From contig JAAVFP010000031.1 in the NCBI GenBank assembly GCA_014800735.1, forward strand, positions 45,685 to 84,021: a DNA stretch of 38,337 nt. Reading direction: 5' to 3'. The stretch comes from Bacteroidales bacterium. Lineage in GTDB: Bacteria; Bacteroidota; Bacteroidia; Bacteroidales; Muribaculaceae. Positions 17,624 through 33,676 of this stretch are shown in pieces. The notes under the pieces were generated by a model that was not told where the DNA came from, searched no databases, and was given only the letters and a program-made list of their open reading frames with translations. The position numbers were made by a program, and so were the translations under genes. Within the stretch, counting starts at the first letter, position 1, and each line of letters begins with the position of its first letter.

Positions 17624-17634
17624 TGCATAAAGTT

Positions 17635-18342
17635 ATGACAAGAGGCAAAATTTATCTTTTTCCGTCCTTTCTGTCGCCTGTTCCGGCTGGCAATGTTTTG
17701 CCCGCGCTCAACCTTGAGTTGATGCGCGCGGTTCGCTATTTTGTGGTGGAGGATTTGCGCTCGGCGCGCCGTTTCCTCAAGGCCTGCGACCGCACCATTG
17801 TGATTGACGATCTCCACTTCGAACTCCTCAACGAGCACACGCGCCCCGAGGAAGTGGATGCCATGCTTGGCCCCGCCCTGGAGGGCCATGACATAGGCGT
17901 GATAAGCGAGGCCGGTTGCCCCGCCGTGGCCGACCCCGGTGCCGATCTGGTGGCCGCCGCCCAGCGACGCGGAATCCAGGTGGTGCCACTGGTGGGACCA
18001 TCCAGCATCCTGATGTCGCTGATGGGCTCCGGATTCAACGGCCAGAGCTTCACATTCCTGGGCTATCTGCCTGTGGACGCACGCCGCCGTGCCGACCGCC
18101 TGCGCGACATGGAGCGCGAAATCCGCCGCGACCGCCGCACCCAGATTTTCATCGAAACACCCTACCGCAACAACCGTCTGATTGCCGAACTGGCATCCTC
18201 GCTACCCGGCCAGATGCTGCTGTGTGTGGCTTCCGACATCACAGGCGAGCACCAGTCCATCATCACCCGCCCTCTGGCCGACTGGAAAAGAGCCTCCTAC
18301 GACTACGACAAACGTCCCACCATTTTCCTGCTCTACAGCTAA
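17635..18342 (+). CDS. RsmI-like SAM-dependent methyltransferase (tetrapyrrole methylase fold)
   Basis: A 235-aa protein of the tetrapyrrole-methylase fold, which includes RsmI, the 2'-O-methylase of C1402 in 16S rRNA. RsmI-like segments are VVEDLRSARRFLK (the family has AEDTR), GVISEAGCPAVADPG (the family has SDAGTP-x-x-DPG), VVPLVGPSSILMSLMGSGF, FTFLGYLP and TQIFIETPYRN. The N terminus is altered: KIYLFPSFLSPVPAGN replaces the common LY-V-TPIGNL, so the first SAM-loop is unusual. Many Bacteroidota carry a paralogue of this kind beside a true RsmI, so the target is uncertain. A metallohydrolase gene follows 18 nt later in a probable two-gene unit. Confidence 0.85.
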   Translation: MTRGKIYLFPSFLSPVPAGNVLPALNLELMRAVRYFVVEDLRSARRFLKACDRTIVIDDLHFELLNEHTRPEEVDAMLGPALEGHDIGVISEAGCPAVADPGADLVAAAQRRGIQVVPLVGPSSILMSLMGSGFNGQSFTFLGYLPVDARRRADRLRDMEREIRRDRRTQIFIETPYRNNRLIAELASSLPGQMLLCVASDITGEHQSIITRPLADWKRASYDYDKRPTIFLLYS

Positions 18343-18360
18343 TTATCACTCATCCGCACC

Positions 18361-19335
18361 ATGACCCGACACCGAAACAAACATACCGACGATGCCTTCT
18401 GGAGTAACCACCCGGGGCTCTTCGATACGTTCGATTCGGACGACGCCGATGCCCTCCTCTCCCCCATGGCCGACGAAGCCTTCGAGGCTCCGGAGCGCCT
18501 GCGGTTCATGTCGTTCGGCAGTGGGTCCAGCGGCAACTGCTCGTATATCGGCACCAGCTCATGCGGCCTGCTCATCGACGCCGGGGTCGACAATAACTTC
18601 GTCACCCAGCAGCTCCTCGCCAACAGCATCGACCTTGCCTCTATCCGCGGCATCCTGCTTACCCACGACCACGGCGACCACGTGCGCTACGCCTACGCCA
18701 TCCTGCGCCGCAACCAGCACATGCGCCTCTACGCTACCCCCAAGGCCCTGCAGGGCATCCTGCGCCGCCACAGCATGAGCCGCCGAATCGTGGACTACCA
18801 CACCCCGGTCTACAAGGAATTCCCATTCAAGGTCGGCCCACTCACCATAACGGCCTTCGAAACCAGCCACGACGGCACCGACAATGCCGGCTTCCACATC
18901 GAGGGCGCCGGAACATCCTTCGTGATCACCACCGACACAGGCACCGTCACCGCGCGTGCCGACCACTACATGCGCCTGGCCCGCAACCTGATGATCGAGG
19001 CGAACTATGACCTCGAAATGCTCCGCAACGGCCGCTACCCGCAATATCTCAAGGCACGCATCATGGGTACCTCGGGCCACCTCGACAATGCCGACACGGC
19101 TCGCTATCTGGCCACGATAGCTCCGGTCACCCAACTGCGCAACATCTTCCTGTGCCATCTTAGCCAGGATAACAACACGCCCCAGATTGCCATCAGCACT
19201 GTGCGCACGGCCCTCGAGGAGGCTCAGATGTCCATCACATCGTCCATCACTCCGAACCCCGACCCTACCTCGGACCGCATCCACCTGTCAGTGCTCCCCC
19301 GCACCGCCTGCACTCCACTGATTGTGCTCAAATAA
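18361..19335 (+). CDS. MBL-fold metallohydrolase (YycJ/WalJ-like)
   Basis: A 324-aa protein. The first ~47 residues are a polar, acidic extension (FDTFDSDDADALLSP) that typical members lack. The core starts at LRFMSFGSGSSGNCSYIG, characteristic of the YycJ branch, followed by LLIDAG and the zinc motif THDHGDHV near residue 101, then ETSHDG, TDTG, EANYD and the late histidine in FLCHLSQDN. YycJ-type enzymes are thought to be DNA/RNA exonucleases involved in mismatch repair and cell-wall homeostasis; the exact substrate here is inference. It lies 18 nt after the RsmI-like gene. A small hairpin follows its stop. Confidence 0.9.
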   Translation: MTRHRNKHTDDAFWSNHPGLFDTFDSDDADALLSPMADEAFEAPERLRFMSFGSGSSGNCSYIGTSSCGLLIDAGVDNNFVTQQLLANSIDLASIRGILLTHDHGDHVRYAYAILRRNQHMRLYATPKALQGILRRHSMSRRIVDYHTPVYKEFPFKVGPLTITAFETSHDGTDNAGFHIEGAGTSFVITTDTGTVTARADHYMRLARNLMIEANYDLEMLRNGRYPQYLKARIMGTSGHLDNADTARYLATIAPVTQLRNIFLCHLSQDNNTPQIAISTVRTALEEAQMSITSSITPNPDPTSDRIHLSVLPRTACTPLIVLK

Positions 19336-19344
19336 TCCCATTGT

Positions 19345-19364
19345 ACCTAAGGCACTTAGGTTTT
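19345..19364 (+). terminator. Short hairpin with T4 after the metallohydrolase gene
   Basis: ACCTAAG-GCA-CTTAGGT (19345-19361) forms a 7-bp stem with a 3-nt loop and runs into TTTT, 10 nt after the stop codon. The stem is short, so termination may be partial. Confidence 0.45.
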
Positions 19365-20060
19365 GGACCAAAGAACCACAGAACTATAGTTTTTTAGAAC
19401 AAGAGCGGCAGAGTCGCCCCGTAACGATAAACCCATAACGCTTGCGCAGACGTAGTGACGTGCCTTTGGCACGTTGGCGATAACACGCTTACTACCAGCG
19501 TCAAACTAATTGAAAGCGGCGGAGCCGATAACACTCGGATTCCAACCCACACGTGCCAAAGGCACGTCCCTACAAACACGCATACCGAAAAAGCGGCGGA
19601 GCCGCGCCGTAGCGACAAAAAGCGCACAAGAGGAATGTAGGGACGTGCACACCGAAAAAGCGGCGGCGGCGCACCGTAGCGAAAAAGCGCACAAGAGGAA
19701 TGTAGGGACGTGCCTTTGGCACGTAGCCGTAACACCCTGATGCTCACCCACACGTGCCAAAGGCAAGTCCCTACAAACGCGCACACCGAAAAAGCGGCGG
19801 AGCCGCGCCGTATCGACAAAAAGCACACAAGAGGAATGTAGGGACGTGCCTTTGGCACGTGGGCGGAACACCCTGATTCTCACGCACACGTGCCAAAGGC
19901 ACGTCCCTACAAATACACGCCGAAAAAGCGGCGGCGGCGCACCGTAGCGAAAAAGCGCACAAGAGGAATGTAGGGACGTGCCTTTGGCACGTGGGCAGAA
20001 CACCCTGATGCTCACCCACACGTGCCAAAGGCACGTCCCTACAAATACACGCCGAAAAAG
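19365..20060. repeat. Array of REP-like palindromes (BIME-type) between convergent genes
   Basis: Eight full copies of the palindrome ACGTGCC-TTT-GGCACGT start at 19458, 19551, 19708, 19752, 19844, 19888, 19976 and 20020, and a half copy stands at 19643. The last six form three head-to-head pairs with a constant offset of 44 bp; the pairs recur every 132-136 bp. Pairs are separated by GC-rich spacers of a shared type containing GCGGCGGAGCCGC or GCGGCGGCGGCGC and then GCGCACAAGAGGAATG. The copy at 19752 has one mismatch in its right arm. An AT-rich element of the ACCACAGAACTATAG type precedes the array (19365-19400). The long open frames that cross the array are by-products of the repeats. No protein gene is supported in 19336-20150. 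Confidence 0.92.
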
Positions 20061-20072
20061 CGACAAACGCGA

Positions 20073-20119
20073 TAACAAGAAACCCCACACCCGGCGCCCA
20101 AAAACGCGGCGTGTGGGGT
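20073..20119 (-). terminator. Terminator of the five-gene exported-protein operon
   Basis: On the minus strand, arms of at least 9 bp (ACCCCACAC at 20082-20090 against GTGTGGGGT at 20111-20119, extended by 3 bp through a bulge) are followed by TTTCTTGTT. It begins 31 bp after the stop of the last lipoprotein gene. Confidence 0.65.
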
Positions 20120-20150
20120 GGGTAACAACATCTCGTTAGTACTCAAAATA

Positions 20151-20972
20151 TCATTTCGGAGCCTGATACCCCGGATTTCCTATGAACCGCTCATGGTTCT
20201 CACGCCAAAAATCCGTGTCGAGGATTTCCTCAGGGATAGGTATATCATTATACTGCAGATTGGGGAGCGCGTAATTATCTGACATCCATGTCTCCCAACC
20301 GCCATCAAGACCTGTGAATTTATTGTGACTTAAATCCACAGGGGTTATAAATCGCCTGAACTGTGCGTCTACATTGCCATCCAACTGATTATTGGATATA
20401 TCCACAATTGAAGTATAGTAAACCATAGCATTCATGTAATTGACATCAAGCCAATGTACTACAATTTTTTCGAATGCAGGAAGTACATTCGTCGTATCCC
20501 ATTTTCTATCAACTACATTAATGTATCCCGGTACCTCAGGATTAATCTTATCGACTAATATTGAGTCGCAGCCGTATGGAATACACCCGGGCCTAAAAGT
20601 TGCACCGGGACATGCGTACAATTTAAAATCCCTAACATTCTTAAGCAGACCTAAATATCCGTCCATCGGGTCGCTCGGTTCGGTGATGTAGAGAGTCAGT
20701 GCACCGACCACAAGATATGGGGTATTCGTGTCCGTGTCAACGATAGTATCAAGTTCGATATTACCTTTCCACGAGGAGCGATCGGCCATAGACCACGGAT
20801 GCGGATAATCCGTAGATTCTGTGTTAAAGTTCGCAGAGATATAGCTCAGTGCCAACGAGTCCATCGGCAATAGATAAATCTCAGGCTGCGCCGTTGGCTC
20901 ATCGTCCTTGCTGTGACAGCCCCACGCCGCGGCCATCAGTAAGGGCAGGAATACCAATAGTATATTTTTCAT
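20151..20972 (-). CDS. LRR-like lipoprotein, cassette copy 1
   Basis: A 273-aa predicted lipoprotein. The lipobox is A-W-G-C with Cys19, followed by HSKDDEP, which fits the Bacteroidetes surface-export signal. An N-terminal domain (about 30-165) has four cysteines in YACPG, CIPYGC and nearby. Then come leucine-rich-repeat-like turns: IVDISNNQLDG and PVDLSHNKFTG, about residues 190-225, and a tail IPIPEEIL...FWRENHE ending GNPGYQAPK. It is a clear paralogue of the protein at 22781-23623; the last nine residues are identical. Its first 74 nt overlap the end of the upstream 613-aa gene in another frame. It is the last gene of the operon. Function is unknown; a surface binding role is inference. 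Confidence 0.85.
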   Translation of the reverse strand: MKNILLVFLPLLMAAAWGCHSKDDEPTAQPEIYLLPMDSLALSYISANFNTESTDYPHPWSMADRSSWKGNIELDTIVDTDTNTPYLVVGALTLYITEPSDPMDGYLGLLKNVRDFKLYACPGATFRPGCIPYGCDSILVDKINPEVPGYINVVDRKWDTTNVLPAFEKIVVHWLDVNYMNAMVYYTSIVDISNNQLDGNVDAQFRRFITPVDLSHNKFTGLDGGWETWMSDNYALPNLQYNDIPIPEEILDTDFWRENHERFIGNPGYQAPK

Positions 20973-22740
20973 CGGGAATTGGGTTTACTCTGAGATATGG
21001 GTTATAGTTAGAGGATGTTATCAGGTACGTTTGTGGCGGTGCATTTACAACTGATTCGTTAAGCGGAGTATAATTATATTTGTATTCCACATTATAAACG
21101 CGTGATTCAGTGAACTCCTGTTGCTTATTGCCATAATTCATAGTCCAGGTCACAATCACTGCTACGGCACGATAACCACTCGCGTTAGTTCCCCAATCGT
21201 AATAGAATTGCGTATTCTCATTGATATCCACATCATAAGGAATATCATATACTAAGCCTCTTATCGGCTGAGTAGCATTAAAACTGATACCGTAGGTACG
21301 TATGCCGTCCTGATTATAAATCAAGTTGCTGTTGTTATAGTTGAACGGATTAGGTTTGTTAACCGAAAGTGTTCTATTACCACCAACTACATCAAGCATT
21401 GCAGTCTTTACCGAGTACGAGACTACGTAGGGTTTGATGTCTGGATTGAATTCAATTTGAATATCACTCTCTGTCATTTCAGGTAAATGAACTATTCCAT
21501 TTATATCAAAATTATGAGGATCTTCGTTCGGGAGGGGTTCATAATTTTCAATTTTAGAATAGCGGCAGTAACTGATAGTAGGCATTTTCTTGAGATTCCA
21601 GACTCCTAAGTGAATCTCCGAGCCTTGTTCTTTTGCAAGACTCGCTATCTTGTTCGATGAGACACCATTCTTAGAAAGAATAGCGTTCAAATCAAAAGTA
21701 AACTCCTTAACACTCGAAAGGAGGTGGGTCTCTCCATTTCCTGCTATCTTAACTGAACCAACAGAACTAAGCGATACCTCGGATACAGTCACCTTCGGTT
21801 TTGAAAATGCTTTAAAGATGAAGCCTAAACCATCTGTCACAGCAGCTGCGATATTACCGGAAACAACTTTACTAACAATATTCCCTAAGTCAATACCAAC
21901 GAAGCTCTTCTTTGGAAGTTTGCCAGCAACTTTATTTCCGAAATTCTTTGCTTCGTCACCCGCGGCGGATAATAGTGCTTGCGTAGTTGGATTATCCATT
22001 AATACATTGGATAAACCATTCACTGTTGTAATTTGACCTGTTATCTGTGAAGAAGTAGTGCCATAGAAATTGAAATCAGAGTATACAGTATTATATGCTC
22101 CAATAGTGATGTTGTTGGAGCTGATTTGTGGATGATACTCACTCACATGCATTTCAAACCCGTTCCATCCATTAGGAAGATAGGAAGCTCCAACGGTTGC
22201 GTTTTCTAACATTACGGAGTGGGTTGAGTATTGGTTACTTCCATTAATTGGACTTGAGAAGTAATCGTAGTGAGAAAATAGAGGTTGACATACATTGTCT
22301 GTTGTGGACTTCACGTCCCAGACAGTTCTCGTTCCTTTATCCTCGGTATGAGAATAGTAAAAGAACTTCATCATACCCGTGCACTTATTATAGAAGCACA
22401 TATAATTAAGATCCGGGTCGGTGGTAAGATCTGCAAATGTATGGAAAAGCATTATCCAGCCATCTGCTTTCTTAATATCCTTTGCGAAAGTTTCCTCAAG
22501 GCCTGAGTTTGTCACTGGCGACCATGGAGTCGCAACTGAAATCTTCGTACCTTGCTTTCCTAGAATCTGTATAGTACTACAAGACTCCCAGTTGGTTAGT
22601 AGAGTTGGATTTACGGTTGTCGATGCTCGCGACTGAACATCGGTTTTCGGAGTTGGAACCTGCGGTTCGATGTCCTCGCTGCTGCATGAAGCCGTAACAA
22701 GGACAAGCACTCCAAATAGAAATCTTAATATATTCTTCAT
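20899..22740 (-). CDS. Large predicted lipoprotein of unrecognised family, cassette copy 1
   Basis: A 613-aa predicted lipoprotein (lipobox T-A-S-C, Cys19, followed by SSEDIEP, a probable surface-export signal). I do not recognise a named domain. An N-terminal domain (about 45-250) contains NPTLLTNWES, DGWIMLFHTF, YMCFYNK-TGM and NGWNGFEMHVSEY. A linker rich in small residues (about 255-325, LPKKSFVGIDLGNIVS, GLGFIFKAF) looks amphipathic. A beta-rich C-terminal part (about 330-590) includes IEFNPDIKPYVVSY and QFYYDWGTNASGYRAVAV. It is a paralogue of the 612-aa protein at 23559-25397, aligning end to end. The gene starts 40 nt after the previous LRR lipoprotein gene and overlaps the next by 74 nt. 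AT-rich relative to the core genes. Confidence 0.85.
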   Translation of the reverse strand: MKNILRFLFGVLVLVTASCSSEDIEPQVPTPKTDVQSRASTTVNPTLLTNWESCSTIQILGKQGTKISVATPWSPVTNSGLEETFAKDIKKADGWIMLFHTFADLTTDPDLNYMCFYNKCTGMMKFFYYSHTEDKGTRTVWDVKSTTDNVCQPLFSHYDYFSSPINGSNQYSTHSVMLENATVGASYLPNGWNGFEMHVSEYHPQISSNNITIGAYNTVYSDFNFYGTTSSQITGQITTVNGLSNVLMDNPTTQALLSAAGDEAKNFGNKVAGKLPKKSFVGIDLGNIVSKVVSGNIAAAVTDGLGFIFKAFSKPKVTVSEVSLSSVGSVKIAGNGETHLLSSVKEFTFDLNAILSKNGVSSNKIASLAKEQGSEIHLGVWNLKKMPTISYCRYSKIENYEPLPNEDPHNFDINGIVHLPEMTESDIQIEFNPDIKPYVVSYSVKTAMLDVVGGNRTLSVNKPNPFNYNNSNLIYNQDGIRTYGISFNATQPIRGLVYDIPYDVDINENTQFYYDWGTNASGYRAVAVIVTWTMNYGNKQQEFTESRVYNVEYKYNYTPLNESVVNAPPQTYLITSSNYNPYLRVNPIPDEKYTIGIPALTDGRGVGLSQQGR

Positions 22741-22780
22741 TGTTGTTAATTCTTTATTTTTGTTGTTTATTCTGAAATAG

Positions 22781-23623
22781 TCATTTCGGAGCCTGATAGC
22801 CGGGATTTCCTATGAACAGCTCGTGGTTCTTGCGCCAAAAATCGGTAGCAAGGATTTCCTCGGGTATTGGGATTTCGTTGTATTGCAGATTCGGAATCGT
22901 GCGGTTATACCACGTTTCCCATCCATAGTCGAAACCAGTGAATTGGTTGTGACTCAGATTAGCCGTATAGAGCAGATTTTCAAACATCACACCTACATCA
23001 TCCTTCAATTGGTTATTGGATAAATCTACAATAGCATCATATTTGAGTATCGCACTTATATACTGCATATCGGTGCCATGAATTGTTAATTTAGAAAACA
23101 ACCAACGGTCAGGCGACATACCTGTTACATACCATATCCCGTCAGGAACTACATTGATATATCCCTGAGAATCAGGATTAATTTTATCAATTAGAACCGA
23201 ATCGCATCCAGTAGGCACACAGCCTCCATCCACAATAGCACCCGGGCAAGCATAAAGTTTAAACGACTTTACATGTTCAAGTTCACTAATCCAATTGGTC
23301 ATAACATCTGTTTGACCCGGTTCAGGAATATAGAGCGTAAGAGCACTAACGACCAGTACTTTTCTATCTATTTCAAAATCAAAAATTGTGTCAAGTTCGA
23401 TCGATCCTTTCCACGAACTCCGGTCAGAAACCGACCACGGATATGGGTAATCCGTGGATTCGGTTTTGAACGATTGGGATATATGGCATAGGGCGACTGA
23501 ATCAGATTCTAACAAGTGTATCACTCCGTCCTCTACCAAGTTAGGTGCAGAGTCATCGTTACAGCTCCATGCCATTACTATAAGTAAAGGTAGGAGTATC
23601 AAGAGTATATTTTTCATCCGCAT
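22781..23623 (-). CDS. LRR-like lipoprotein, cassette copy 2
   Basis: A 280-aa predicted lipoprotein, paralogous along its length to the protein at 20151-20972. The lipobox is A-W-S-C followed by NDDSAPN. Shared segments include TESTDYPYPWS, DRSSWKG, LYACPGA, CVPTGCDSVLIDKINP and GYINVV. LRR-like turns read IVDLSNNQL and TANLSHNQFTG. The tail has IPNLQYNEIPIPEEIL and ends GNPGYQAPK. There are two possible ATG starts, 23623 and 23617; the second gives MKNILL and aligns exactly with the start of the copy-1 protein. The first is in a more AT-rich context. Either way the start lies inside the end of the upstream 612-aa gene. Confidence 0.85.
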   Translation of the reverse strand: MRMKNILLILLPLLIVMAWSCNDDSAPNLVEDGVIHLLESDSVALCHISQSFKTESTDYPYPWSVSDRSSWKGSIELDTIFDFEIDRKVLVVSALTLYIPEPGQTDVMTNWISELEHVKSFKLYACPGAIVDGGCVPTGCDSVLIDKINPDSQGYINVVPDGIWYVTGMSPDRWLFSKLTIHGTDMQYISAILKYDAIVDLSNNQLKDDVGVMFENLLYTANLSHNQFTGFDYGWETWYNRTIPNLQYNEIPIPEEILATDFWRKNHELFIGNPGYQAPK

Positions 23624-25397
23624 TATACTTATAACCGCTGTAACTAATGAAATTAGACTCGTCTAAGAGATAACTGGAAGGAGGATTGTTCACCACCCAC
23701 ATGCTCGGAGACGTTGGACTTATTTTATATGTAACATCGTACACACGCGATTCAGTAAATGATTGCGTTTTCGAACCATATTTAACTGTCCATGTTACAA
23801 TTACTGACACAGCACGATTACCTGTTACGTTGGTTCCCCAATCGTAGTACAGCTGCGTGCTTTCATCCACAGAAGCCCCTCCAGTATCAGGAATAAAACC
23901 AGCTAAACTCTGAATCTGCCCAGAGGATATACCATAAATCGTAACATTATCTTGTGTCGCAATTTTGTTATCTGTATTGATTGCAAATCTCTTTCCACTT
24001 GAACTTACGCTTCTATTACCTCCATTAACATCTAATATAGCGGTTTGAATATTCCAGGAAGTTATGTAAGGCTTTATATCTGGGTTGAATTCGATTTCAA
24101 CATCACCAATGTAGCAATCAGGTTGTTCAACAAAGCCATTGACATCAAAAGTTGTAGGAGCTTGCCCTGGGATACCGGCAAGATTTTCAACCTTTGAGTA
24201 CCTAGAATAGTAAAGTGTTGGAGTATATTTGAGATTCCAAATACCAAGTTCAACGTTATTACTTCGTTCAACTGCAAGAGTTGCAAAATTATTCTCAGAG
24301 GACCTTGTAGAGCCAGCAGTGAGTATCTCATTCAAATTAATTGTAATCGGTTCAACTCCCGATACATAGTAAGTCTTTCCTTCTCCTTCCATTTTAACTG
24401 TACCTTCGGTTCTGAGTGAAACTTCTGAAACAGTTGTCTTAGGCTTAATAAAAGACTTAAAGATGAAACCCAAGCCTTTAGTGACTGCACTTACTACATT
24501 CCCAGAACTTATCGTTGAAACAACTTCACTCAGATTAATGCCTAAGAAACTCTTTTTGGGTAGAGTGGGGCCAATTTTTTTTGCTAAATATTCTGCACCT
24601 TCACCAATTCCGGTTAAAGCCGCTTTTGTATCTTTATTAGAAGTTAGAGTGTTGACAGAACCATTGATTGTAGTGATGGTTCCGGTGGTTGTAGACTCTG
24701 TAATGCCGTTAAACTTATAGTCACTGTAAACTGTATTATAAGCGCCAATTTTAATTGAACCCGAAGCTACTTGTGAACGATACTCACTTAAATGAAATTG
24801 GAAGCCATTCCATCCTTTGTGTAATATAGTTTCATTATCTGTCTCATTATCAAGCGTTATGGCATAAGTAGCGTATTTGATATTTCCATTCGTTGGGTTG
24901 GAAAAGTAATCATAGTTTGCAAACATAGCCTGCGCTGTTTTCCCATCGGCAGATCTAACATCCCACACAGTACGAGTGCCCTTGTCCTCCTCAAATACGT
25001 AGTAGAATATTTTAATCATTCCCGAGAAACGATTATAGAAGCACATGTAGGTTTGATTAGGGTCACGGTAGCGATCTACAAAAGTATGGAAAAGCATAAC
25101 CCAACCGTCCTCTTTTTTCACATCACTCGCAAAATCGCTGTTCAGCCAGGTAGAAGTACCAGATTTCCATGGAGGAGTAGCTTTAATGCATACTCCGGAA
25201 GGATTGTACATTACGATGGCATCAAGCGATTCCCAATTAGTGAGCAACTGAGGATTGGTATTCGATTGAGTGGGCGGAGTGGTAGCGCGCGACAACACGG
25301 GGTTATCGGGCACCTGAGGCCCGATGTCCTCGCTGCTGCATGCAGCCGTTACGAGGGAAAGCACTCCGATGATGAAGAAAAATAGTTTTTTCGTCAT
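23559..25397 (-). CDS. Large predicted lipoprotein of unrecognised family, cassette copy 2
   Basis: A 612-aa predicted lipoprotein (lipobox T-A-A-C, Cys19, followed by SSEDIGPQ). It is collinear with the 613-aa protein at 20899-22740. Shared blocks include LLTNWES, DGWVMLFHTFVD, DKGTRTVWDV, YFSNPTNG against YFSSPING, WNGFQFHLSEY, GAYNTVYSDYKF, LPKKSF, TVSEVSL, IEFNPDIKPY, GGNRSVS, YYDWGTNVTGNRAVSVIVTW and FTESRVYDV. By eye about half the residues match. I do not recognise a named domain. It starts 57 nt after the small secreted-protein gene and overlaps the following LRR lipoprotein gene by 65 nt. Export to the cell surface is inferred from the acidic residues behind the lipidated cysteine. 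Confidence 0.85.
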   Translation of the reverse strand: MTKKLFFFIIGVLSLVTAACSSEDIGPQVPDNPVLSRATTPPTQSNTNPQLLTNWESLDAIVMYNPSGVCIKATPPWKSGTSTWLNSDFASDVKKEDGWVMLFHTFVDRYRDPNQTYMCFYNRFSGMIKIFYYVFEEDKGTRTVWDVRSADGKTAQAMFANYDYFSNPTNGNIKYATYAITLDNETDNETILHKGWNGFQFHLSEYRSQVASGSIKIGAYNTVYSDYKFNGITESTTTGTITTINGSVNTLTSNKDTKAALTGIGEGAEYLAKKIGPTLPKKSFLGINLSEVVSTISSGNVVSAVTKGLGFIFKSFIKPKTTVSEVSLRTEGTVKMEGEGKTYYVSGVEPITINLNEILTAGSTRSSENNFATLAVERSNNVELGIWNLKYTPTLYYSRYSKVENLAGIPGQAPTTFDVNGFVEQPDCYIGDVEIEFNPDIKPYITSWNIQTAILDVNGGNRSVSSSGKRFAINTDNKIATQDNVTIYGISSGQIQSLAGFIPDTGGASVDESTQLYYDWGTNVTGNRAVSVIVTWTVKYGSKTQSFTESRVYDVTYKISPTSPSMWVVNNPPSSYLLDESNFISYSGYKYNADEKYTLDTPTFTYSNGMEL

Positions 25398-25454
25398 AAC
25401 TGGTTTGTAAATAGTTGTTATTAATTAAGGGTTAGTTAGTATGAATGCTTATCG

Positions 25455-25841
25455 TTAGATATAAACATAGCCGGCATATACATCACCGTTGTCGGCGGTG
25501 CACTCGATGTAGTATTCACCAACAGGGAGAGGTTGTTCCCAGAACGGATTATCAAACGAAATGGTACCAAAGAAAATGACATGGGAGAGTAGATTCTCAG
25601 CTTGGATGTCAAGATTAATGACACCAAAGGGTAAATAAAAAGTTCCGAATCCTCTGTTGCAATTATAACAGAATTTGACATTCTCACTATAGACGGGAGC
25701 TAAGTATATCCCAGGATCAACAGGGATTTCCTTTTTGGGCAATGGATACTTTGGAGTATCATCGTCAGTGTCATCAGCAAAGCTTACAAAGCTAGTAAGG
25801 CTGCATAGAGATAAGAGCAGAAAGATTAATAGTCGTTTCAT
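25455..25841 (-). CDS. Small secreted beta-rich protein (DUF3244-like), operon leader
   Basis: A 128-aa protein with a cleavable signal peptide (MKRLLIFLLLSLCSLTSFVSFA, cut before DDTDDD). The mature part has an acidic start, a C-Y-N-C pair near residue 59, and an end PVGEYYIECTADNGDVYAGYVYI. That ending, G-x-Y-x-(I/L)-x-x-x-x-x-x-G-x-x-Y-x-G-x-(V/F)-x-(I/V), resembles the short DUF3244-type beta-sandwich proteins common in Bacteroidales; I hold the family name loosely. It is the first gene after the promoter at 25866-25873, and 57 nt before the 612-aa lipoprotein gene, so it heads the operon. Confidence 0.75.
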   Translation of the reverse strand: MKRLLIFLLLSLCSLTSFVSFADDTDDDTPKYPLPKKEIPVDPGIYLAPVYSENVKFCYNCNRGFGTFYLPFGVINLDIQAENLLSHVIFFGTISFDNPFWEQPLPVGEYYIECTADNGDVYAGYVYI

Positions 25842-25865
25842 ATTTATTTAGATTTTTGGATGTCG

Positions 25866-25873
25866 CAAAGTTA
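25866..25873 (-). promoter_or_regulatory. -7 box of the five-gene exported-protein operon
   Basis: TAACTTTG on the minus strand, 24 bp before the ATG at 25841. A -33 TTG at the right spacing is not evident. No other TAnnTTTG box stands before the later genes of the operon. Confidence 0.6.
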
Positions 25874-26067
25874 GCCATGAAAACACTATAAAATGAAATT
25901 TTCAGGTGTCGAAAATCCTTACATCTTCTCATATAATTAGTTGATTAACAAGCGATTATTCGCGGTAAGAAAATTTTTATTCTTACAGCGTGTATCTTGC
26001 TTATTTTTAGGTAGTTAGATATGTAGATGGTAACTATAGTTTATATACGACTGATTATCTGCATGTT

Positions 26068-26165
26068 ACACCGTCGGAGTGTCGCTCCTTCGGAGCTCAT
26101 GGGTGGGGAGGGTTCTGGCCGCTGGCTTACACCAGCTGTTGGAAATTATTGCGCCGCGTTGCGGC
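26068..26165. repeat. Series of four small GC-rich hairpins
   Basis: ACAC/GTGT (26068-26082), GCTCC-TTC-GGAGC (26084-26096), GCTGG/CCAGC (26121-26136) and GCCGC-GTT-GCGGC (26153-26165) follow one another inside an otherwise AT-rich spacer. The set looks like a mobile non-coding mosaic element rather than a single terminator. The stretch 25874-26067 before it holds nothing I can name. Confidence 0.55.
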
Positions 26166-26170
26166 TGTGA

Positions 26171-26660
26171 AAAACTATAGCGCTATGGTTCTATGGTCCA
26201 AAATTGAAGACCAGAGAACTAGAGAACTATAGGTTTTATAGGACGGCAGCGGCGGAGCCGCGCTGTAGCGAGAAACCCCACGTGCAACGTGGGGTGCAGA
26301 ATGGGTAACACACTAAGGAGCTTCGGAGATGCGACATCACTGCGACATCGCTTCTCCGAAGCTCGCCATGTATCGTTTTTTCCTACCCCACGTTGCACGT
26401 GGGGTTTCTCGATACTTCGCGGCTCCGCCGCTCCCCGGTTTGAGCCAAAGCTTCCGCTTTTGGACCAGAGAACCACAACAAAATTAAATCTATAGCGCTA
26501 TGGTTCTATGGTCCAAAACTGAAGACCAGAGAACTAGAGAACAAGAGACTTGAACTAGAGCACCACAACTATAGTATTAAATCTATAGATCTATAGTTCT
26601 CTGGTCTAAAATCGAAGACCAAAGAACCAAAGCCTTAATAAAAACCTTTGATTCAATGGT
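26171..26660. repeat. Repeat mosaic: AT-rich hairpins around a long inverted repeat
   Basis: Two near-identical AT-rich units of about 50 bp (from 26173 and from 26490; CTATAGCGCTATGGTTCTAT...GACCAGAGAACTAGAGAAC) flank a compound inverted repeat. In that repeat 26269-26295 and 26385-26411 are exact inverted copies of 27 nt, each containing the palindrome ACCCCACGT/ACGTGGGGT. The arms extend outward with mismatches to 26248 and 26432 through AGCGGCGGAGCCGCG. A second stem GAGCTTCGGAGA/TCTCCGAAGCTC is nested inside (about 26329-26364). Further units at 26580-26660 repeat TTCTCTGGTC and GACCAAAGAACC. No gene is supported here. Confidence 0.85.
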
Positions 26661-26667
26661 CCAAAAA

Positions 26668-28398
26668 TCAGGACAAATATGTTATGTAGTGCTGGGCGGC
26701 GGAGGGATTGGTTTTGAGGAGCTTTTGCTTCAGGCGGAATTTGCGTGTATAGATGGTGTTGGTGTCGACTCCAAGATAAAGAGCAATGGCCGGCGCCTTG
26801 AATCCGGCTACAATCAATGTGAACAGATGCACGTCGGTCTGCTTGAGCGCAGGGAAGTCGGAGCGCAGACGCGATATGATATTGTCGAAATACTCATTGA
26901 TATCCTGCTCTATTTCAGCCAGATTCTGAGGGGTAGCATGGCGTGAAATAAAGGCCTCGACACGCTTGTAGAGCTGTTTGGGATTGTCGGCCGAATCGGA
27001 ATAAAGGCCACAGACATCGTTGAATGCAGCCAGTTGCTTCATAACATGCTCTTTGGATTGACGTCGATATTCGGCCTGCATGCGTGAGCCCTCGGCGAGG
27101 TCGCCACTAAGCTGAGCGAGGCGGTCGGACGCGGAATTGAGGTTATCCGAAACCTCTGTAAGCCGCCCGCTAAGCTCGGTAATGCGGTCGGATTTAGTGT
27201 GGAGGCTCTCGGAAAGCTCGGCCACAAGCCCGATGGTTTTATTGATGCGCAGCTGCTTGCGCCTGACAAGGATAGCAGCGACTATAATCACAAGAACCAA
27301 TACGGCAAGCGCAATAATGGCAAAGACGTTGAAACTACGGCGGTTGCGGTTTAATTCAGCTTTTCGCTCAGCAATGGCCTGCTTATAGAAGCCGTCGATA
27401 ACAGCGCTGTAGTTGCGCTTATATATTGATTCAAATTCAGAATTTGTATAGTCAAAATCATTATCAATAAGTTGAAATATATGACCTGTATCCTTTGTCC
27501 TACGCGCAATTGCATAATCGAGACTCGTGTCATGCGGATTATAAACCTTCACAGAATCGCTGCAAGCCCGCGCTTCATCAATCATTCCGAGGCTAAGATA
27601 TGCTATTCCTAAATTATAGAAATCAAGAGGAGTAAACTCAAATTCATCATCCTTCAAAGCTAATAATAAATCGAGAGCTAGGGTATAGTGATGACTATTG
27701 AGATGCGCAAATGCACGAACACCTGTCACTGCGTGATTCAGGCGAGGGTTGGATAACACAACATCCAAGCATGCCAATGAATCGGCCAACTTAACGGACC
27801 TGTCATATTCCAACACATTATTATATGCGCGTGCAACATTGTATAGGCCCCAGAAGTAATACATGGAATCAGGATCTGCGCGGAAGGTTTGGGCTGACTT
27901 CCGGTAATACTCAAGTGCGCTGGCCTTGTCGTCCATGTTATCGAAAGCGTCGGCAATGTTGCGCTGGGCAAGACCGGCGAAGTGTACGTCGCCGAGGGCA
28001 AGGGCGATATCTTCGGCAGTAAGGAGGTCGACGATGGCATCCACATAGCGTTCCTCGCCAATCTTGCGGTATCCGCTCAGGAAATACGCGCGAACCAGGG
28101 TGGTCCCCGGCTCCTTGCGCGAGAGGGTGGCGATAATACCGGCGAAGGCGGAGTCGGACGGGAGCGGCTGCCGAAGTTTGTAGGCGGCCTCGGCCCGGCA
28201 AACATCGGTGCGGGCACGGAAGTCCGCGTGGGAAAGCGAGGCGGGGGTGATGCTATCCAGGACAGCAAGGGCGGAATCAGGGTAGCCGCGCACGAGGGCT
28301 TCCGCACGGTCCAGGCGGCTGCGGTCAGCGCCCGAGGGTCCGCATGCGGCCATCATCAGCACTATCAGGGCAGACAATATGTAACGCAAGGCTATCAC
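26668..28398 (-). CDS. Membrane-spanning TPR regulator with C-terminal HTH (DUF6377-type)
   Basis: A 576-aa protein. An N-terminal signal/anchor with lipobox-like M-A-A-C (Cys19) leads into TPR-like helical repeats (about 25-340). A single transmembrane helix follows (about 357-378) with RRKQ on its cytosolic side. Then comes a leucine-heptad coiled coil (about 390-450) and a C-terminal LuxR-like helix-turn-helix (about 515-565, LKQTDVHLFTLIVAGF...IALYLGVDTNTIYTRKFRLKQKL). The layout suggests that the TPR part senses something outside the membrane and the HTH binds DNA. The frame opens with GTG at 28398 just after a -7 box, so the mRNA may be leaderless; no ATG restores the signal peptide. 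It is next to the exported-protein operon and could regulate it, which is inference. Confidence 0.85.
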   Translation of the reverse strand: MIALRYILSALIVLMMAACGPSGADRSRLDRAEALVRGYPDSALAVLDSITPASLSHADFRARTDVCRAEAAYKLRQPLPSDSAFAGIIATLSRKEPGTTLVRAYFLSGYRKIGEERYVDAIVDLLTAEDIALALGDVHFAGLAQRNIADAFDNMDDKASALEYYRKSAQTFRADPDSMYYFWGLYNVARAYNNVLEYDRSVKLADSLACLDVVLSNPRLNHAVTGVRAFAHLNSHHYTLALDLLLALKDDEFEFTPLDFYNLGIAYLSLGMIDEARACSDSVKVYNPHDTSLDYAIARRTKDTGHIFQLIDNDFDYTNSEFESIYKRNYSAVIDGFYKQAIAERKAELNRNRRSFNVFAIIALAVLVLVIIVAAILVRRKQLRINKTIGLVAELSESLHTKSDRITELSGRLTEVSDNLNSASDRLAQLSGDLAEGSRMQAEYRRQSKEHVMKQLAAFNDVCGLYSDSADNPKQLYKRVEAFISRHATPQNLAEIEQDINEYFDNIISRLRSDFPALKQTDVHLFTLIVAGFKAPAIALYLGVDTNTIYTRKFRLKQKLLKTNPSAAQHYITYLS

Positions 28399-28402
28399 GA
28401 TG

Positions 28403-28410
28403 CAAAGATA
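28403..28410 (-). promoter_or_regulatory. -7 box of the TPR/HTH regulator gene
   Basis: TATCTTTG on the minus strand, ending 4 bp before the GTG start at 28398. Transcription should begin at or next to the start codon. Confidence 0.55.
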
Positions 28411-28439
28411 AGAAAATTTTTCGCCGATTGAGTGGTTTT

Positions 28440-28640
28440 AGGAGGCCAAAGCTCATATGGTTTTTAGACCAGAGAACCAAAGGACTATAGGTTTTAGGAC
28501 GGCAGCGGCGGAGCCGCTCCTCAATGTGGCCAACACCCCTAAAACTTTAAGACCAGAGAACCACAGATCTATAGATTTTATAGGACTGAAAATAGTCCTA
28601 CTTCACTATAGTTCTATGGTTCTCTGGTCTAAAGTCTAAA
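28440..28640. repeat. Repeat patch ending in a long hairpin behind nrdJ
   Basis: The stretch 28465-28520 holds AGACCAGAGAACC, GGACTATAGG and AGCGGCGGAGCCGCT, the same modules as at 26.2 kb. Then 28550-28574 and 28606-28630 are 25-nt inverted copies with two mismatches, with TAGGACT/AGTCCTA (28581-28600) nested inside. The hairpin begins 26 bp after the nrdJ stop and may act as its terminator, although the run behind it on the minus strand is not T-rich. Confidence 0.8.
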
Positions 28641-28655
28641 GCCCAAATGGGGGAA

Positions 28656-31202
28656 TCAGCCGCAGCGCGAGGTGCCGCAGTTGGTGCAGATCAGGCAGCC
28701 CTCCTGGTAGATGAGCGTTTCCTGACCGCAGTTGGGGCACTTCTGTCCCTTGGCCGAGGTACCGTTGGGGAGGTATTTTTTCAGCGCACGCTCCACACCC
28801 ATTTTCCAGGTGTTGATGGACTGCGAGTCGAGCTCAAGTGTACCTACCAGCTTCAGCACCTGATCGATAGGCATGCCGTAGCGGAGCACGCCCGAGATGA
28901 GCTTGGCGTAGTTCCAGTACTCGGGGTTGAACTTATCCGAAAGACCCTCGATGGTGGTTTTGTGGCCGCGCTTGTTGATGAACTGGAAGTCGTAGCGCTT
29001 CACACCGTTCTCGTCCACCGCTTTGATGATTTTGCCGTGGCTGATGTTCTTGGGGATGAAGATACCGTCGTCGTCGTCGGCCAGACCGGTGAAGATTTCG
29101 TAGGGGCGGCCGTCCACCAGCCCGACGAATGCAATCCACTTCTCTTTCTTGTTCTGGAAACGCACCACATCGGCTTCGAGCTCGATGGGACGCTTGGCCA
29201 TGATGGGCTGCTGCGAGGATTTGTCCTCCTTCTCTTTCTTTTTCTTATCCGGCTGAACGGACACGAGCACACCGGCACGCGAGCCGTCGCGGTAGACGGT
29301 GCAACCCTTGCACCCCACTTTCCATGCCTGGCGGTAGAGCTGCTCCACGGCATCGACGGTGATGTCGGCCGGCAGGTTGATGGTGACTGAGATAGAGTGG
29401 TCCACCCACTTCTGGATGCGGCCCTGCATGTTCACCTTTTCGAGCCAGTCGATGTCGTTGGCCGTGGCTCCGGCATAGGGTGAGCGGGCCACGAGCTCGT
29501 CGAGCTCGGCCTGCGTGTAGTGCTTGGCGGTGTCGATGCCGTTGATGCGCATCCAGTCCAGGAACTTTGGATGGTACACAATGTATTCTTCGAAAGCATC
29601 GCCGCTGTCGTCCACGAAATCCACTCGCACTCCTGCATCGTTGGGGTTGACCTTGCGGCGGCGCTTGTAGACGGGCATGAACACAGGCTCGATGCCTGAG
29701 CTGGTGCGGGTCATCAGGCTAGTGGTGCCGGTGGGAGCGATGGTGAGGCAGGCGATGTTGCGGCGGCCTACACGCTTCATGCGCTCGTACATGGCGGGGT
29801 CGGCCTCGGCCAGACGCATGATGAAGGGATTGGAGGCTTCGCGCTCGGCGTCGAACACCTCGAAGGCTCCGCGCTCCTGGGCCATGTTGACGGATTCGCC
29901 GTAGGCTGCCAGTGCGATGGCGCGGTGCACCTGCACTGAGAAATCGGTGGCCTCGGGGGTGCCGTAGCGCAGTCCCAGGGCGGCCAGCATATCGCCTTCG
30001 GCGGTTGTGCCCAGGCCGGTGCGGCGACCCTTGAGGGTCTTTTCCTTGATTTTGGTCCACAGGTTGCGCTCGGTGGCTTTCACCTCGGGACGCTCGGGGT
30101 CGGAGTCGATTTTGGCCAGGATGAGGTCGATTTTCTCCATCTCGAGGTCGATGATATCGTCCATGATTCGCTGGGCCTTGGCAATGTATTTGGCCAGGAG
30201 GTCGAAATCAAACTCGGCCTGGGGTATGAATGGATTCTTCACGAAGGAGTAGAGGTTGATGGCCAGCAGACGGCAGCTGTCGTAGGGACAGAGGGGGATT
30301 TCGCCGCAGGGGTTGGTGGATATGGTTTCGAAGCCGAGGTCGGCATAGCAGTCGGGCACGGATTCACGGCGGATGGTGTCCCAGAAAAGCACACCGGGCT
30401 CGGCGGATTTCCATGCGTTGCCCACGATTTTCTGCCAGAGTGCCCCGGCGTCGATGTCCTTCACGAAGTCGGGGTTCTCGGAGTCGATGGGATATTGCTG
30501 GCGGTAGGGGGTGCCGGATTCGACGGCTTTCATAAAATCATCGTCGATGCGGACGGACACGTTGGCGCCGGTCACCTTGCCGGGGGTCATCTTTGCGTCG
30601 ATGAAGGCCTCGGAGTCGGGGTGCTTGATGGAAACGGTCATCATGAGCGCACCGCGGCGGCCGTCCTGGGCCACCTCGCGGGTGGAGTTGGAGTAGCGCT
30701 CCATGAAGGGTACCAGGCCTGTGGATGTGAGGGCCGAGTTCTTTACGGGGCTGCCTTTGGGGCGCAGATGCGACAGGTCGTGGCCCACGCCACCGCGACG
30801 CTTCATGAGCTGCACCTGCTCCTGGTCAACGAGCATGATGCCGCCGTAGCTATCGGGCTTACCGTCGATGCCGATTACGAAGCAATTGGACAGCGAACCC
30901 ACCTGAAAGTTATTGCCGATGCCGGCCATGGGGCTGCCCTGGGGCACGACGTAGCGGAAGTCGCGCAGCAGCTCGAAGATTTCATCCTCGGTCATGCCGT
31001 TGGGGTAGCGGGCCTCGATGCGGGCCAGTTCGCGCGCCAGGCGGCGGTGCATGTCGTCGGGGGTGAGTTCGTAGATGTGGCCGTGGGAGTCCTTGAGGGC
31101 ATACTTGCTCACCCACACTCGGGCTGCAAGGTCATCGCCACCGAAATACTGCAGGGTGGCGGCGTTGGATTCGTCGAATGTATATGTTTTTTCCGGTATC
31201 AT
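28656..31202 (-). CDS. nrdJ: Adenosylcobalamin-dependent (class II) ribonucleotide reductase
   Basis: Reduces ribonucleotides to deoxyribonucleotides with a radical derived from adenosylcobalamin. The 848-aa protein has Cys107 in GSLSNCFVIG and Cys299 in STNPCGEIPLCPYDSC, the latter being the thiyl-radical finger-loop region typical of RNRs, plus GRRGALMMTVSIKHPD near residue 190 and the TGTTSLMT loop. A zinc-ribbon tail ends the protein (CPNCG...CLICTNCG). No separate beta subunit gene is near, as expected for class II. The frame is open upstream, but the start is MIPEKTYTFD at 31202, since the promoter (31234-31265) lies inside the longer reading. Confidence 0.95.
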   Translation of the reverse strand: MIPEKTYTFDESNAATLQYFGGDDLAARVWVSKYALKDSHGHIYELTPDDMHRRLARELARIEARYPNGMTEDEIFELLRDFRYVVPQGSPMAGIGNNFQVGSLSNCFVIGIDGKPDSYGGIMLVDQEQVQLMKRRGGVGHDLSHLRPKGSPVKNSALTSTGLVPFMERYSNSTREVAQDGRRGALMMTVSIKHPDSEAFIDAKMTPGKVTGANVSVRIDDDFMKAVESGTPYRQQYPIDSENPDFVKDIDAGALWQKIVGNAWKSAEPGVLFWDTIRRESVPDCYADLGFETISTNPCGEIPLCPYDSCRLLAINLYSFVKNPFIPQAEFDFDLLAKYIAKAQRIMDDIIDLEMEKIDLILAKIDSDPERPEVKATERNLWTKIKEKTLKGRRTGLGTTAEGDMLAALGLRYGTPEATDFSVQVHRAIALAAYGESVNMAQERGAFEVFDAEREASNPFIMRLAEADPAMYERMKRVGRRNIACLTIAPTGTTSLMTRTSSGIEPVFMPVYKRRRKVNPNDAGVRVDFVDDSGDAFEEYIVYHPKFLDWMRINGIDTAKHYTQAELDELVARSPYAGATANDIDWLEKVNMQGRIQKWVDHSISVTINLPADITVDAVEQLYRQAWKVGCKGCTVYRDGSRAGVLVSVQPDKKKKEKEDKSSQQPIMAKRPIELEADVVRFQNKKEKWIAFVGLVDGRPYEIFTGLADDDDGIFIPKNISHGKIIKAVDENGVKRYDFQFINKRGHKTTIEGLSDKFNPEYWNYAKLISGVLRYGMPIDQVLKLVGTLELDSQSINTWKMGVERALKKYLPNGTSAKGQKCPNCGQETLIYQEGCLICTNCGTSRCG

Positions 31203-31233
31203 CGAATAGAATTGAGAGGTCGATTTTGCGGTG

Positions 31234-31265
31234 CAAAATTGGGAATTTTTTTCCAAGTGGGCAAA
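31234..31265 (-). promoter_or_regulatory. Promoter of nrdJ
   Basis: On the minus strand, CAATTTTG at 31234-31241 is one base off TAnnTTTG, and TTTG at 31262-31265 is a -33 element at a 20-bp spacing. No B12 riboswitch fits in the 31-nt leader. Confidence 0.6.
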
Positions 31266-31310
31266 TAAAAACGGACGCTCCGGAGCCAAATCGGCCCCAC
31301 AGCTATCTGT

Positions 31311-31358
31311 GGCAAAGAAAAAGAGGCGGAAAAAGTTTTCAACACCTTTTCCGCCTCT
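31311..31358 (-). terminator. Terminator of the T9SS-protein gene
   Basis: A 12-bp perfect stem, AGAGGCGGAAAA (31322-31333) against 31347-31358, is followed on the minus strand by TTTTCTTTG. It starts 22 bp after the stop of the gene at 31380-32834. Confidence 0.85.
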
Positions 31359-31379
31359 GTTGATATCCTTTCGCGTGTA

Positions 31380-32834
31380 TTATTTCAGCGCAATCTTGAA
31401 AGTGCGGGTGGCACCCTGTCCGGCCACGCGGACAAGGTAGAAGCCTGTGCTCAAGCCGTTAAGGTCCAGGCTGAACCAATCAGCGCCCGCCTTCGAAGCA
31501 GCCAGACGGCCATCGGTGGTGAACACGCTCACAGCCGTCGCTCCGGGGCTGCTGATTTCCAGGCTTCGGCCGCTCAGGCGGCAGGCAATCTCGGTGGCAT
31601 CCACGGCCACGGTTGCCAGGCCTGACAGACCGGTAAAGGCGGTTACCACCACCTTGGTTTCAGGCACGGTTTCATCATCCTCGGAGTTGTAGACGGAGGT
31701 TAGTGTCTGGCACACAGCATCCTTGTCGGGGTCGATGGTATAGTCGTAGATAAGCTTCTCAACGTATTCCTCCTCGTCGTAGAGATAGGAAGCGGTTTCA
31801 AGGGTGATGAGGCCTCGCTCGCTGTAGGTGACTTCGTAGAGCTCGGTTTCGGTGAACACCTCGTCGTCCTCGGTATATTGCAGGGTGCGTTCGTCCACAT
31901 ACGAGCCGAAATCGTCGAGCACGGCATGCTCAAAGGCCAAGGCGTCGCCAGCGTAGAACTCGATTTCCAGTCGGCCCGACTGTTCGTCGGTGTACTCGCC
32001 CGTCACATCGGCCTCAGGCTCGCCCTCAAAGTAGAGTTTGGCCGCCTTGATGCGGTTGGCACCCACTGCATAATTCTCGGGGTCGAAACCCAGAGCCTGG
32101 CCATCGGTGTTTTCCCACACAATGTCGCGGTAGTCGAAGTACTCCTCCCACACGTAGTCCGCGCCGTCCACGCCGAGTTCTTCTTCTTTTACAGCGGTAA
32201 TCTTACCGTCGTTACCAACGGTGTTGGTCAGGCGCGCAATGGGTGTGAATTCATCCTGGAAGTTGGTGAGGCGTTCGGCACCGGTGACCACCTTGCCGCT
32301 GTTGCGGGTGATGGCGTACTTGGTGCCATAGCGGAGCACCCACTCATAATCCCAGGCATACATCAGGGTAGCCGTGCGGAAATCGGTCACGACGTCATCG
32401 TACTCGTTCTCGTATTTCGAGCTCGGTTCCCAGTTTTTGCCGCCGTCGGTGCTTGATTCCTCAAGAATCTGAGTGATGTTGCCGTAGGTGTCATATTTGT
32501 AGCTGGTGCGGTTCTGCCAGGTGGTGGATTCGGGGGTGGTAGACACCACGGTGAGCACGCGGCCCTGGTCGTCGTAGGTGTAGGATGCGTTCATAGCCTC
32601 CAACCACTCGCCGTCATCATAGAAATAGTAGGTTTCCTCCAGAGGCTTGTAGATGGTGTTGGCCTCGGCAGTGGCGCGGGCCTGAATGCGGGCACGCTGC
32701 AGGCCTTTCTGCTTTTTGATGCCGGTTTCTTTTTTCTGCTTCTCAAAAAGCATCTTGGCGCGGGGTGCAGCCATTGCCTCGCCGCCAACCATTGCTGCAG
32801 CAAGCACAGTGAGTGTTAGTAAAGTTTTTCTCAT
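31380..32834 (-). CDS. Secreted protein with type IX sorting domain and YD-like repeats
   Basis: A 484-aa protein with a signal peptide (cleavage near AMA-AP, residue ~23). A basic stretch (KQKKETGIKKQK) is followed by tyrosine/aspartate-rich segments such as YTYDDQGRV, YKYDTYGNI and YDYTIDPDKD, reminiscent of YD/RHS-type strands but not a full RHS shell. The last ~70 residues are a type A C-terminal sorting domain: a beta-strand set with VSVFTTDGRLAASK, LDLNGLSTGFYLVRV and the final FKIALK. This predicts export by the type IX system and attachment to the cell surface or release. It is very acidic overall. It has its own promoter (32856-32863) and terminator, so it is monocistronic. Confidence 0.85.
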   Translation of the reverse strand: MRKTLLTLTVLAAAMVGGEAMAAPRAKMLFEKQKKETGIKKQKGLQRARIQARATAEANTIYKPLEETYYFYDDGEWLEAMNASYTYDDQGRVLTVVSTTPESTTWQNRTSYKYDTYGNITQILEESSTDGGKNWEPSSKYENEYDDVVTDFRTATLMYAWDYEWVLRYGTKYAITRNSGKVVTGAERLTNFQDEFTPIARLTNTVGNDGKITAVKEEELGVDGADYVWEEYFDYRDIVWENTDGQALGFDPENYAVGANRIKAAKLYFEGEPEADVTGEYTDEQSGRLEIEFYAGDALAFEHAVLDDFGSYVDERTLQYTEDDEVFTETELYEVTYSERGLITLETASYLYDEEEYVEKLIYDYTIDPDKDAVCQTLTSVYNSEDDETVPETKVVVTAFTGLSGLATVAVDATEIACRLSGRSLEISSPGATAVSVFTTDGRLAASKAGADWFSLDLNGLSTGFYLVRVAGQGATRTFKIALK

Positions 32835-32855
32835 AGTTATATTTCTATTTGGCTA

Positions 32856-32863
32856 CAAAGGTA
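32856..32863 (-). promoter_or_regulatory. -7 box of the T9SS-protein gene
   Basis: TACCTTTG on the minus strand, 21 bp before the ATG at 32834. Any -33 element would lie inside the 3' end of the upstream ferredoxin gene. Confidence 0.65.
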
Positions 32864-32874
32864 GTGAAAATTTT

Positions 32875-33657: not shown

Positions 33658-33676
33658 ATCCTAATTTTTTTGTCTG

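Follow-up and report, generated by a model that had tools for sequence, protein, structure and literature searches.

What do two successive pairs of lipoprotein genes do for a bacterium of the Bacteroidales, and do the two proteins of each pair act together? The question arises from a stretch of 38,337 nucleotides from a member of the Muribaculaceae, here called the window, whose parent genome is 86% complete. An earlier note on this DNA described a large and a small lipoprotein gene, present twice, head to tail, on the minus strand at 20151-25397, and the four open reading frames (ORFs) are as described (Table 1). The paralogues align far beyond chance, the large ones over their full length with 51% identity (query residues 3-610, E = 5e-192) and the small ones with 59% identity (E = 1e-100). 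All four proteins carry a lipobox-like cysteine with acidic residues within a few positions (CSSED, CSSED, CNDD and CHSKDD, read by eye), so that the surface-lipoprotein signals claimed for them are borne out, and we infer that the four are exposed on the outer surface. The nine-residue C-terminus said to be common to the small proteins is present and is two residues longer (FIGNPGYQAPK, 11 residues).

Table 1. Features of the lipoprotein cassette and its surroundings, in window coordinates.
Feature	Position	Strand	Remarks
Large lipoprotein A	23559-25397	minus	612 aa; family missing from the libraries searched; no Pfam or NCBIfam match
Small LRR lipoprotein A	22781-23623	minus	280 aa; 65-bp overlap with large A
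Large lipoprotein B	20899-22740	minus	613 aa; 40-bp gap between small A and large B
Small LRR lipoprotein B	20151-20972	minus	273 aa; 74-bp overlap with large B
128-aa secreted ORF	25455-25841	minus	possible kinship with DUF3244; leads the probable transcript
TPR-HTH regulator	26668-28398	minus	576 aa; precedes the pairs
TAACTTTG	25866-25873	minus	presumed resemblance to the -7 promoter element of Bacteroidales; 24 bp ahead of the 128-aa ORF

The 128-aa ORF and both lipoprotein pairs are likely to form one transcript, given the short gaps and overlaps between the genes (57 bp separate the ORF from large gene A) and the single TAACTTTG element ahead of the ORF. This element, which we take to be akin to the Bacteroidales -7 promoter motif, has four exact matches in the window against 0.87 expected, a number reached in two of 100 shuffles. 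All four sit before or at an ORF start, and that preceding the 128-aa ORF is the only one within 17624-33676; the fuller two-part promoter pattern was not found there with one mismatch allowed. The 65- and 74-bp overlaps imply that the final stretch of each large gene also encodes, in a different reading frame, the signal peptide of the small protein; of the four large-small pairs in the genus, three overlap by 65-86 bp. Between the regulator and the unit that begins with the 128-aa ORF is a repeat-rich gap of about 830 bp. Palindromic repeat arrays flank the cassette at 19452-20045 downstream (TGTAGGGACGTGCCTTTGGCACGTG type) and at 26171-26666 upstream (ACCCCACGTGCAACGTGGGGT together with 62-nt repeats).

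The regulator has an N-terminal signal or lipobox-like segment, a TPR region, one transmembrane segment, a coiled coil and a C-terminal HTH; the TPR matches lie below the Pfam cut-off, and the transmembrane segment, coiled coil and HTH were assigned by eye. A weak library match to the ZorA coiled coil was set aside. The 128-aa protein is possibly a distant relative of DUF3244: hhalign places it with a DUF3244-type alignment at 95%, signal peptide included; hmmsearch with a DUF3244-type model built without it missed it, and it has no Pfam DUF3244 (PF11589) match at E <= 1. A TPR regulator stands beside 11 of 14 hand-picked DUF3244 small-frame matches (one of the 11 is split by transposase genes), a count made with a regulator model that had itself included nine of those loci. 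When the model was built from the three regulators of the window's own genome alone it recovered eight of the 11 at E < 1e-3 and missed those of genomes G327 and G624, which bear a weak likeness to the window regulator (33 and 30 bits). The combination of TPR regulator and DUF3244 gene also precedes C39-peptidase ABC exporter genes (L116 7944-13911 and L120 2661-11404), which suggests loci for peptide export, and on L117 and L118 it precedes a lipoprotein with no Pfam match.

The large protein resembles nothing that carries a name in the libraries searched. None of 13 family members matches NCBIfam at E <= 0.01, and Pfam at E <= 1 returns three families, each in a single member (best E 0.014). 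The family profile has no PDB match at E <= 10. PADLOC matches none of the four window lipoproteins, PHROGs matches neither large A nor the prophage-borne member described below, and keyword searches of the literature found no description of the large or small family. On these comparisons the large protein founds a family that is unnamed in the domain libraries searched. Its central segment appears glycine-rich and hydrophobic by eye and was considered as a pore-forming region; the hydrophobic maximum falls there in 9 of 13 homologues. This candidate was rejected, as the height of that maximum, the most hydrophobic 19-residue stretch, exceeds shuffles in none of the 13.

The family is patchily distributed. 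Large A matches 6 of 146 genomes, its own included and all of one genus; the profile matches 12 of 397 family-level and 7 of 393 order-level genomes, again counting its own. One of the latter seven, G624, was judged spurious, the match being confined to the signal peptide (E = 7.5e-4), and a match in G045 was discarded because it falls in a RecF/SMC_N-type frame. One distant member carries a T9SS sorting domain. Among plasmids, tblastn with large A found only a weak match (E = 1e-4) in Spirosoma, which covers 22% of the query and lies close to transposase genes, Tn3 among them, and the G764 member matched nothing. In genome G559 the large-family gene (L065 8165-9877) lies within a prophage, on the opposite strand, the prophage being marked by large and small terminase, ParB-like and weak tape-measure matches. 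An IMG/VR contig, perhaps the same prophage, holds an identical gene. This member had no match in 50,697 phage records, a pattern search of IMG/VR found no relative of large A, and no relatives turned up when large A, small B and the G764 member were used singly to scan viral sequences.

The LRR character proposed for the small protein holds, in that a profile of eight members matches plant LRR receptors in the PDB with a best E of 7e-16 summed over repeats; the best single stretch against the LRR ectodomains reaches an i-E of 1.1. About three clear repeats can be seen by eye, and single small proteins match Pfam LRR_1 only below the cut-off. Weak library matches of small B to DUF6610 and PRK13240 were set aside, and small B matched nothing in plasmids or phages. 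The search for the small family matched nine genomes, five of which were dropped as spurious LRR stretches within frames of about 1200 aa, leaving a strict family in 4 of 297 family-level genomes, own genome included. Its eight loci comprise pairs A and B of the window, loci C24 and C9, one each in G027 and G024, and two in G018. The FIGNPGYQAPK C-terminus characterises the family: the C24 copy has it unaltered, and it is retained with changes at C9, G027 and G024.

A large gene is adjacent or within one gene at six of these eight loci. The two without, C24 and C9, both belong to the window's own genome, which was searched with large A, and both lie near relatives of the window regulator. At C24 one such relative (27% identity, E = 4e-51) and the small gene are divergently oriented; at C9 the small gene lies two genes behind another (53% identity), in the order Peptidase C10, lipoprotein, regulator, 134-aa protein, unrelated 280-aa lipoprotein, small gene. 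The 134-aa protein is 49% identical to the 128-aa protein of the window over 100 residues. A Peptidase C10 gene, found here at L017 299-1195, also occurs several kilobases from a short large-family gene (L053 12726-14069). At L017 4053-6302 three adjacent genes of C9 contain many single ambiguous bases: the small gene has 51, of which 24 fall at codon positions 1-2, the preceding lipoprotein gene has 31, five of them at those positions, and the 134-aa gene has two. Five other genes checked have none, and these bases may mark strain variation or mixed reads.

How constant is the pairing? We assessed 20 large loci mostly by eye from ORF maps, three of which (G578, G465 and Spirosoma) are weak matches. 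An LRR lipoprotein gene adjoins the large gene at eight of them, in three genera, with the order large-small at both window pairs, G027, G024 and G159, small-small-large in G018 and small-large at the two pairs of G378. At the remaining 12 (G028, G021, G327, G304, G261, G437, G764, G749, G559, G578, G465 and Spirosoma) the LRR neighbour is missing; the G304 gene is broken, and G261 and G437 hold short N-terminal forms. The co-occurrence anticipated by the earlier note is thus seen across genera, but it is not constant and its order is reversed in some genomes. The strict pairing from which a complex had been argued fails at these 12 large loci and at two of the eight strict small loci, and the observation that the earlier note named as refuting it, homologues common on their own, applies in part to the large protein. 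The pairing is nevertheless genuine.

Two of the loci without an LRR neighbour, in G028 and G021 of the same genus as the window, have the order SusC-SusD-large, with Pfam matches that confirm the SusC barrel and SusD in each genome. A gap of 240 bp follows susD in G028, and the G021 large copy lacks its N-terminal part in frame. In both genomes a gene for a 146-aa lipoprotein is directed toward the SusC-SusD-large genes (L021 283-723 and L022 6746-7186). In G327 the order is TPR regulator, 116-aa DUF3244-like protein, large protein and an unrelated 354-aa lipoprotein. C9 thus retains the layout of the window locus but has another lipoprotein where the large protein would stand, G327 has the large protein with another lipoprotein where the small one would stand, and the partners can be exchanged.

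The partners in G159 and G378 required closer comparison. A combined profile of the three partners, aligned with the small-family profile, gives 97% over 231 columns, and 89% without the two G018 copies; the signal peptides were retained in each case. With signal peptides removed, the G159 partner scores 14.0 bits (E = 0.0015 for 1000 sequences) and the G378 partners 8.1 and 6.8 bits, all above 240 shuffles; the five other neighbours are absent from the 25 best in this comparison. When the small family was compared with 750 ORFs only the G159 partner passed (E = 0.0013), the G378 partners missing E 1. There is fair support in these scores for kinship of the G159 partner with the small family and modest support for that of the G378 partners, to which LRR repeats may contribute.

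The two window pairs had been explained as an old duplication. Large A is 50-51% identical to large B and 50% identical to the G027 copy, which belongs to another species, with large B and the G027 copy at 45%. The unpaired C24 and C9 copies are closer to small B (63-64% identity) than small A is (58-59%). Trees leave the splits of the large and small copies undecided. A simple tandem duplication of the pair in place is not supported by these identities. The two G378 pairs, which come from another genus, differ in another manner. Their small genes are 92-93% identical in nucleotides over codons 26-75 and 43-60% over codons 101-325, the LRR part, and their large genes 41-63% over codons 1-275, 84% over 301-325 and 87-99% over 376-450; the C89 copy noted with them has a stop near its start. 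Such mosaics suggest that blocks have been exchanged between copies and that the LRR part and the large N-terminus have diverged strongly. No long near-identical block comparable to those of G378 exists between window pairs A and B, in which short blocks are found (six of eight fourfold sites equal over codons 331-360 of the large genes and five of five in the tail overlapping the small gene). Over their last 43 codons small B and the C24 copy agree at 10 of 13 fourfold sites, elsewhere at 15 of 57.

The cassette has a GC content of 41% against 52.5% for the window, and a GC3 of 0.35-0.48 against 0.68-0.81 in four other window genes; a low GC3 is shared by an OMP gene of the window (0.44). The flanking genes are never on one contig in the 27 of 30 same-genus relatives that have both, so there is no empty site to compare. 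Stretches beside the RNR gene in seven relatives, some of them short, gave no regulator match.

We considered known systems of similar layout. According to the published account (PMC11169675), the CDCL toxins of Bacteroides have as neighbour a 30.4-kDa surface lipoprotein, BcdI, an immunity protein that protects the producer; CDCL-L and CDCL-S are likewise encoded by adjacent genes for surface-directed lipoproteins in Bacteroidota, and some CDCL genes are on mobile elements. Unlike the large protein, CDCL proteins match PF01289, and the small partner here is an LRR protein. The BSAP MACPF lipoproteins (PMC12853789, PMC4999547) are also large surface lipoproteins of Bacteroidales, whereas the large protein has no MACPF match. 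On sequence, we rejected membership of MACPF/CDC (BSAP, CDCL) because 13 members gave no PF01823 or PF01289 match at E <= 1. Kinship by hhalign was rejected too: the large family gave 20.5% with CDCL and 1.1% with MACPF, both within the first ~26 columns, the signal peptide, while controls with SusD and the regulator gave 7.6% and 8.9% and CDCL against MACPF gave 65% over 80 columns. BcpT has its lipoprotein immunity protein, BcpI, encoded adjacently (PMC9308784); the plasmid searches reported above, which covered large A and the G764 member, matched Spirosoma with the former and nothing with the latter. The plant-type LRR receptor kinases in the PDB share with the small protein its C-terminal LRR repeats. 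The small protein differs in being a bacterial lipoprotein with about three clear repeats, an N-terminal part of its own and the FIGNPGY motif, and single stretches match weakly.

Our tentative preference, held at somewhat less than even confidence, is for a surface module that is exchangeable and serves bacteria in antagonism or mutual recognition. This accessory set of two proteins would sit on the outside of a Bacteroidales gut bacterium, where the large protein would be a surface or released effector and the LRR lipoprotein its cognate partner, in complex with it and most simply an immunity or neutralising protein. The membrane-spanning TPR-HTH regulator would control the one transcript for the small secreted protein and the two pairs, gene overlaps would couple translation of large and small, and the unpaired small genes of the same genome would be orphan immunity genes. 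We favour this reading for the patchy distribution, the small genes that stand unpaired near related regulators and mosaics that resemble exchanged effector-partner genes, and for the precedent of Bacteroidales toxins with neighbouring lipoprotein immunity proteins (PMC11169675, PMC9308784). The recurrent LRR adjacency, the AT-richness and the mobile settings count in the same direction. So does a row of genes in G624 (L068 10805-14951) in which a TPR regulator of like plan, a DUF3244 (PF11589) gene and a gene for a MACPF protein that weakly matches a ricin-type lectin follow one another. Against it, sequence and profile searches found no toxin domain or fold in the large protein, its central segment is unremarkable, the G327 and G624 regulators are only weakly alike and low GC3 is not unique to the cassette. 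The 13 MACPF regions recovered by a family search, some cut by contig ends, all lack the regulator, and none has a clear DUF3244 gene (one weak match, E 0.024); with this and its varied cargo, the association of TPR regulator and DUF3244 says little about toxins. Large genes often stand without an LRR neighbour, and these would have no such immunity; C9 and G327, where the small gene follows and the large gene precedes an unrelated lipoprotein, indicate that neither partner is tied to the other.

Near-equal in probability is a surface complex for ligand capture or adhesion, in which the large protein would be an accessory like SusE/SusF or an SGBP, the LRR lipoprotein would bind protein or glycoprotein and the copies would differ in ligand. 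SusE, SusF and SGBPs are surface glycan-binding lipoproteins, and LRRs are common protein-binding modules. The large gene directly after susC-susD in two species fits ligand binding and speaks against antagonism, and the T9SS sorting domain of one distant member also suits a capture role. BSAP-1 and BSAP-2 genes adjoin a replacement of their target (PMC4999547), so a large gene in this position is compatible with antagonism or ligand capture. By eye, no SusC-SusD pair stands beside any of the eight LRR-partnered large genes, those of the window included; conversely neither SusC-SusD locus has an LRR partner, and no carbohydrate-binding, BACON or IPT domain was matched in Pfam searches of the large protein and its family. 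A common transcript and regulator without physical contact between the two lipoproteins is improbable: the partner missing from many loci and the exchanges at C9 and G327 would accord with it, but the genes are neighbours again and again in different genera, although their order changes, and the genus retains the long overlaps in three of its four large-small pairs. We think it still less probable that the large protein is a phage-linked factor for receptor masking or superinfection exclusion, borne by prophages and domesticated elsewhere. The G559 gene and its identical copy in IMG/VR are a single prophage case, perhaps one and the same, and set against them are the phage, PHROGs, IMG/VR and PADLOC searches reported above.

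If the reading of an effector with an LRR immunity partner is true, a new protein family would be added to the antagonism systems of gut Bacteroidales. Its fullest form, a new class of surface antagonism with a non-MACPF lipoprotein effector and LRR lipoprotein immunity, diversified by block exchange and leaving orphan LRR immunity genes near related TPR-HTH regulators, we consider unlikely. If instead the pair captures ligands, it would be a surface complex outside the usual Sus plan. Under either reading the large protein represents a family that the domain libraries searched do not name, and a pair of surface lipoproteins encoded close to a regulator of its own is a variation on what the Bacteroidota are known for.
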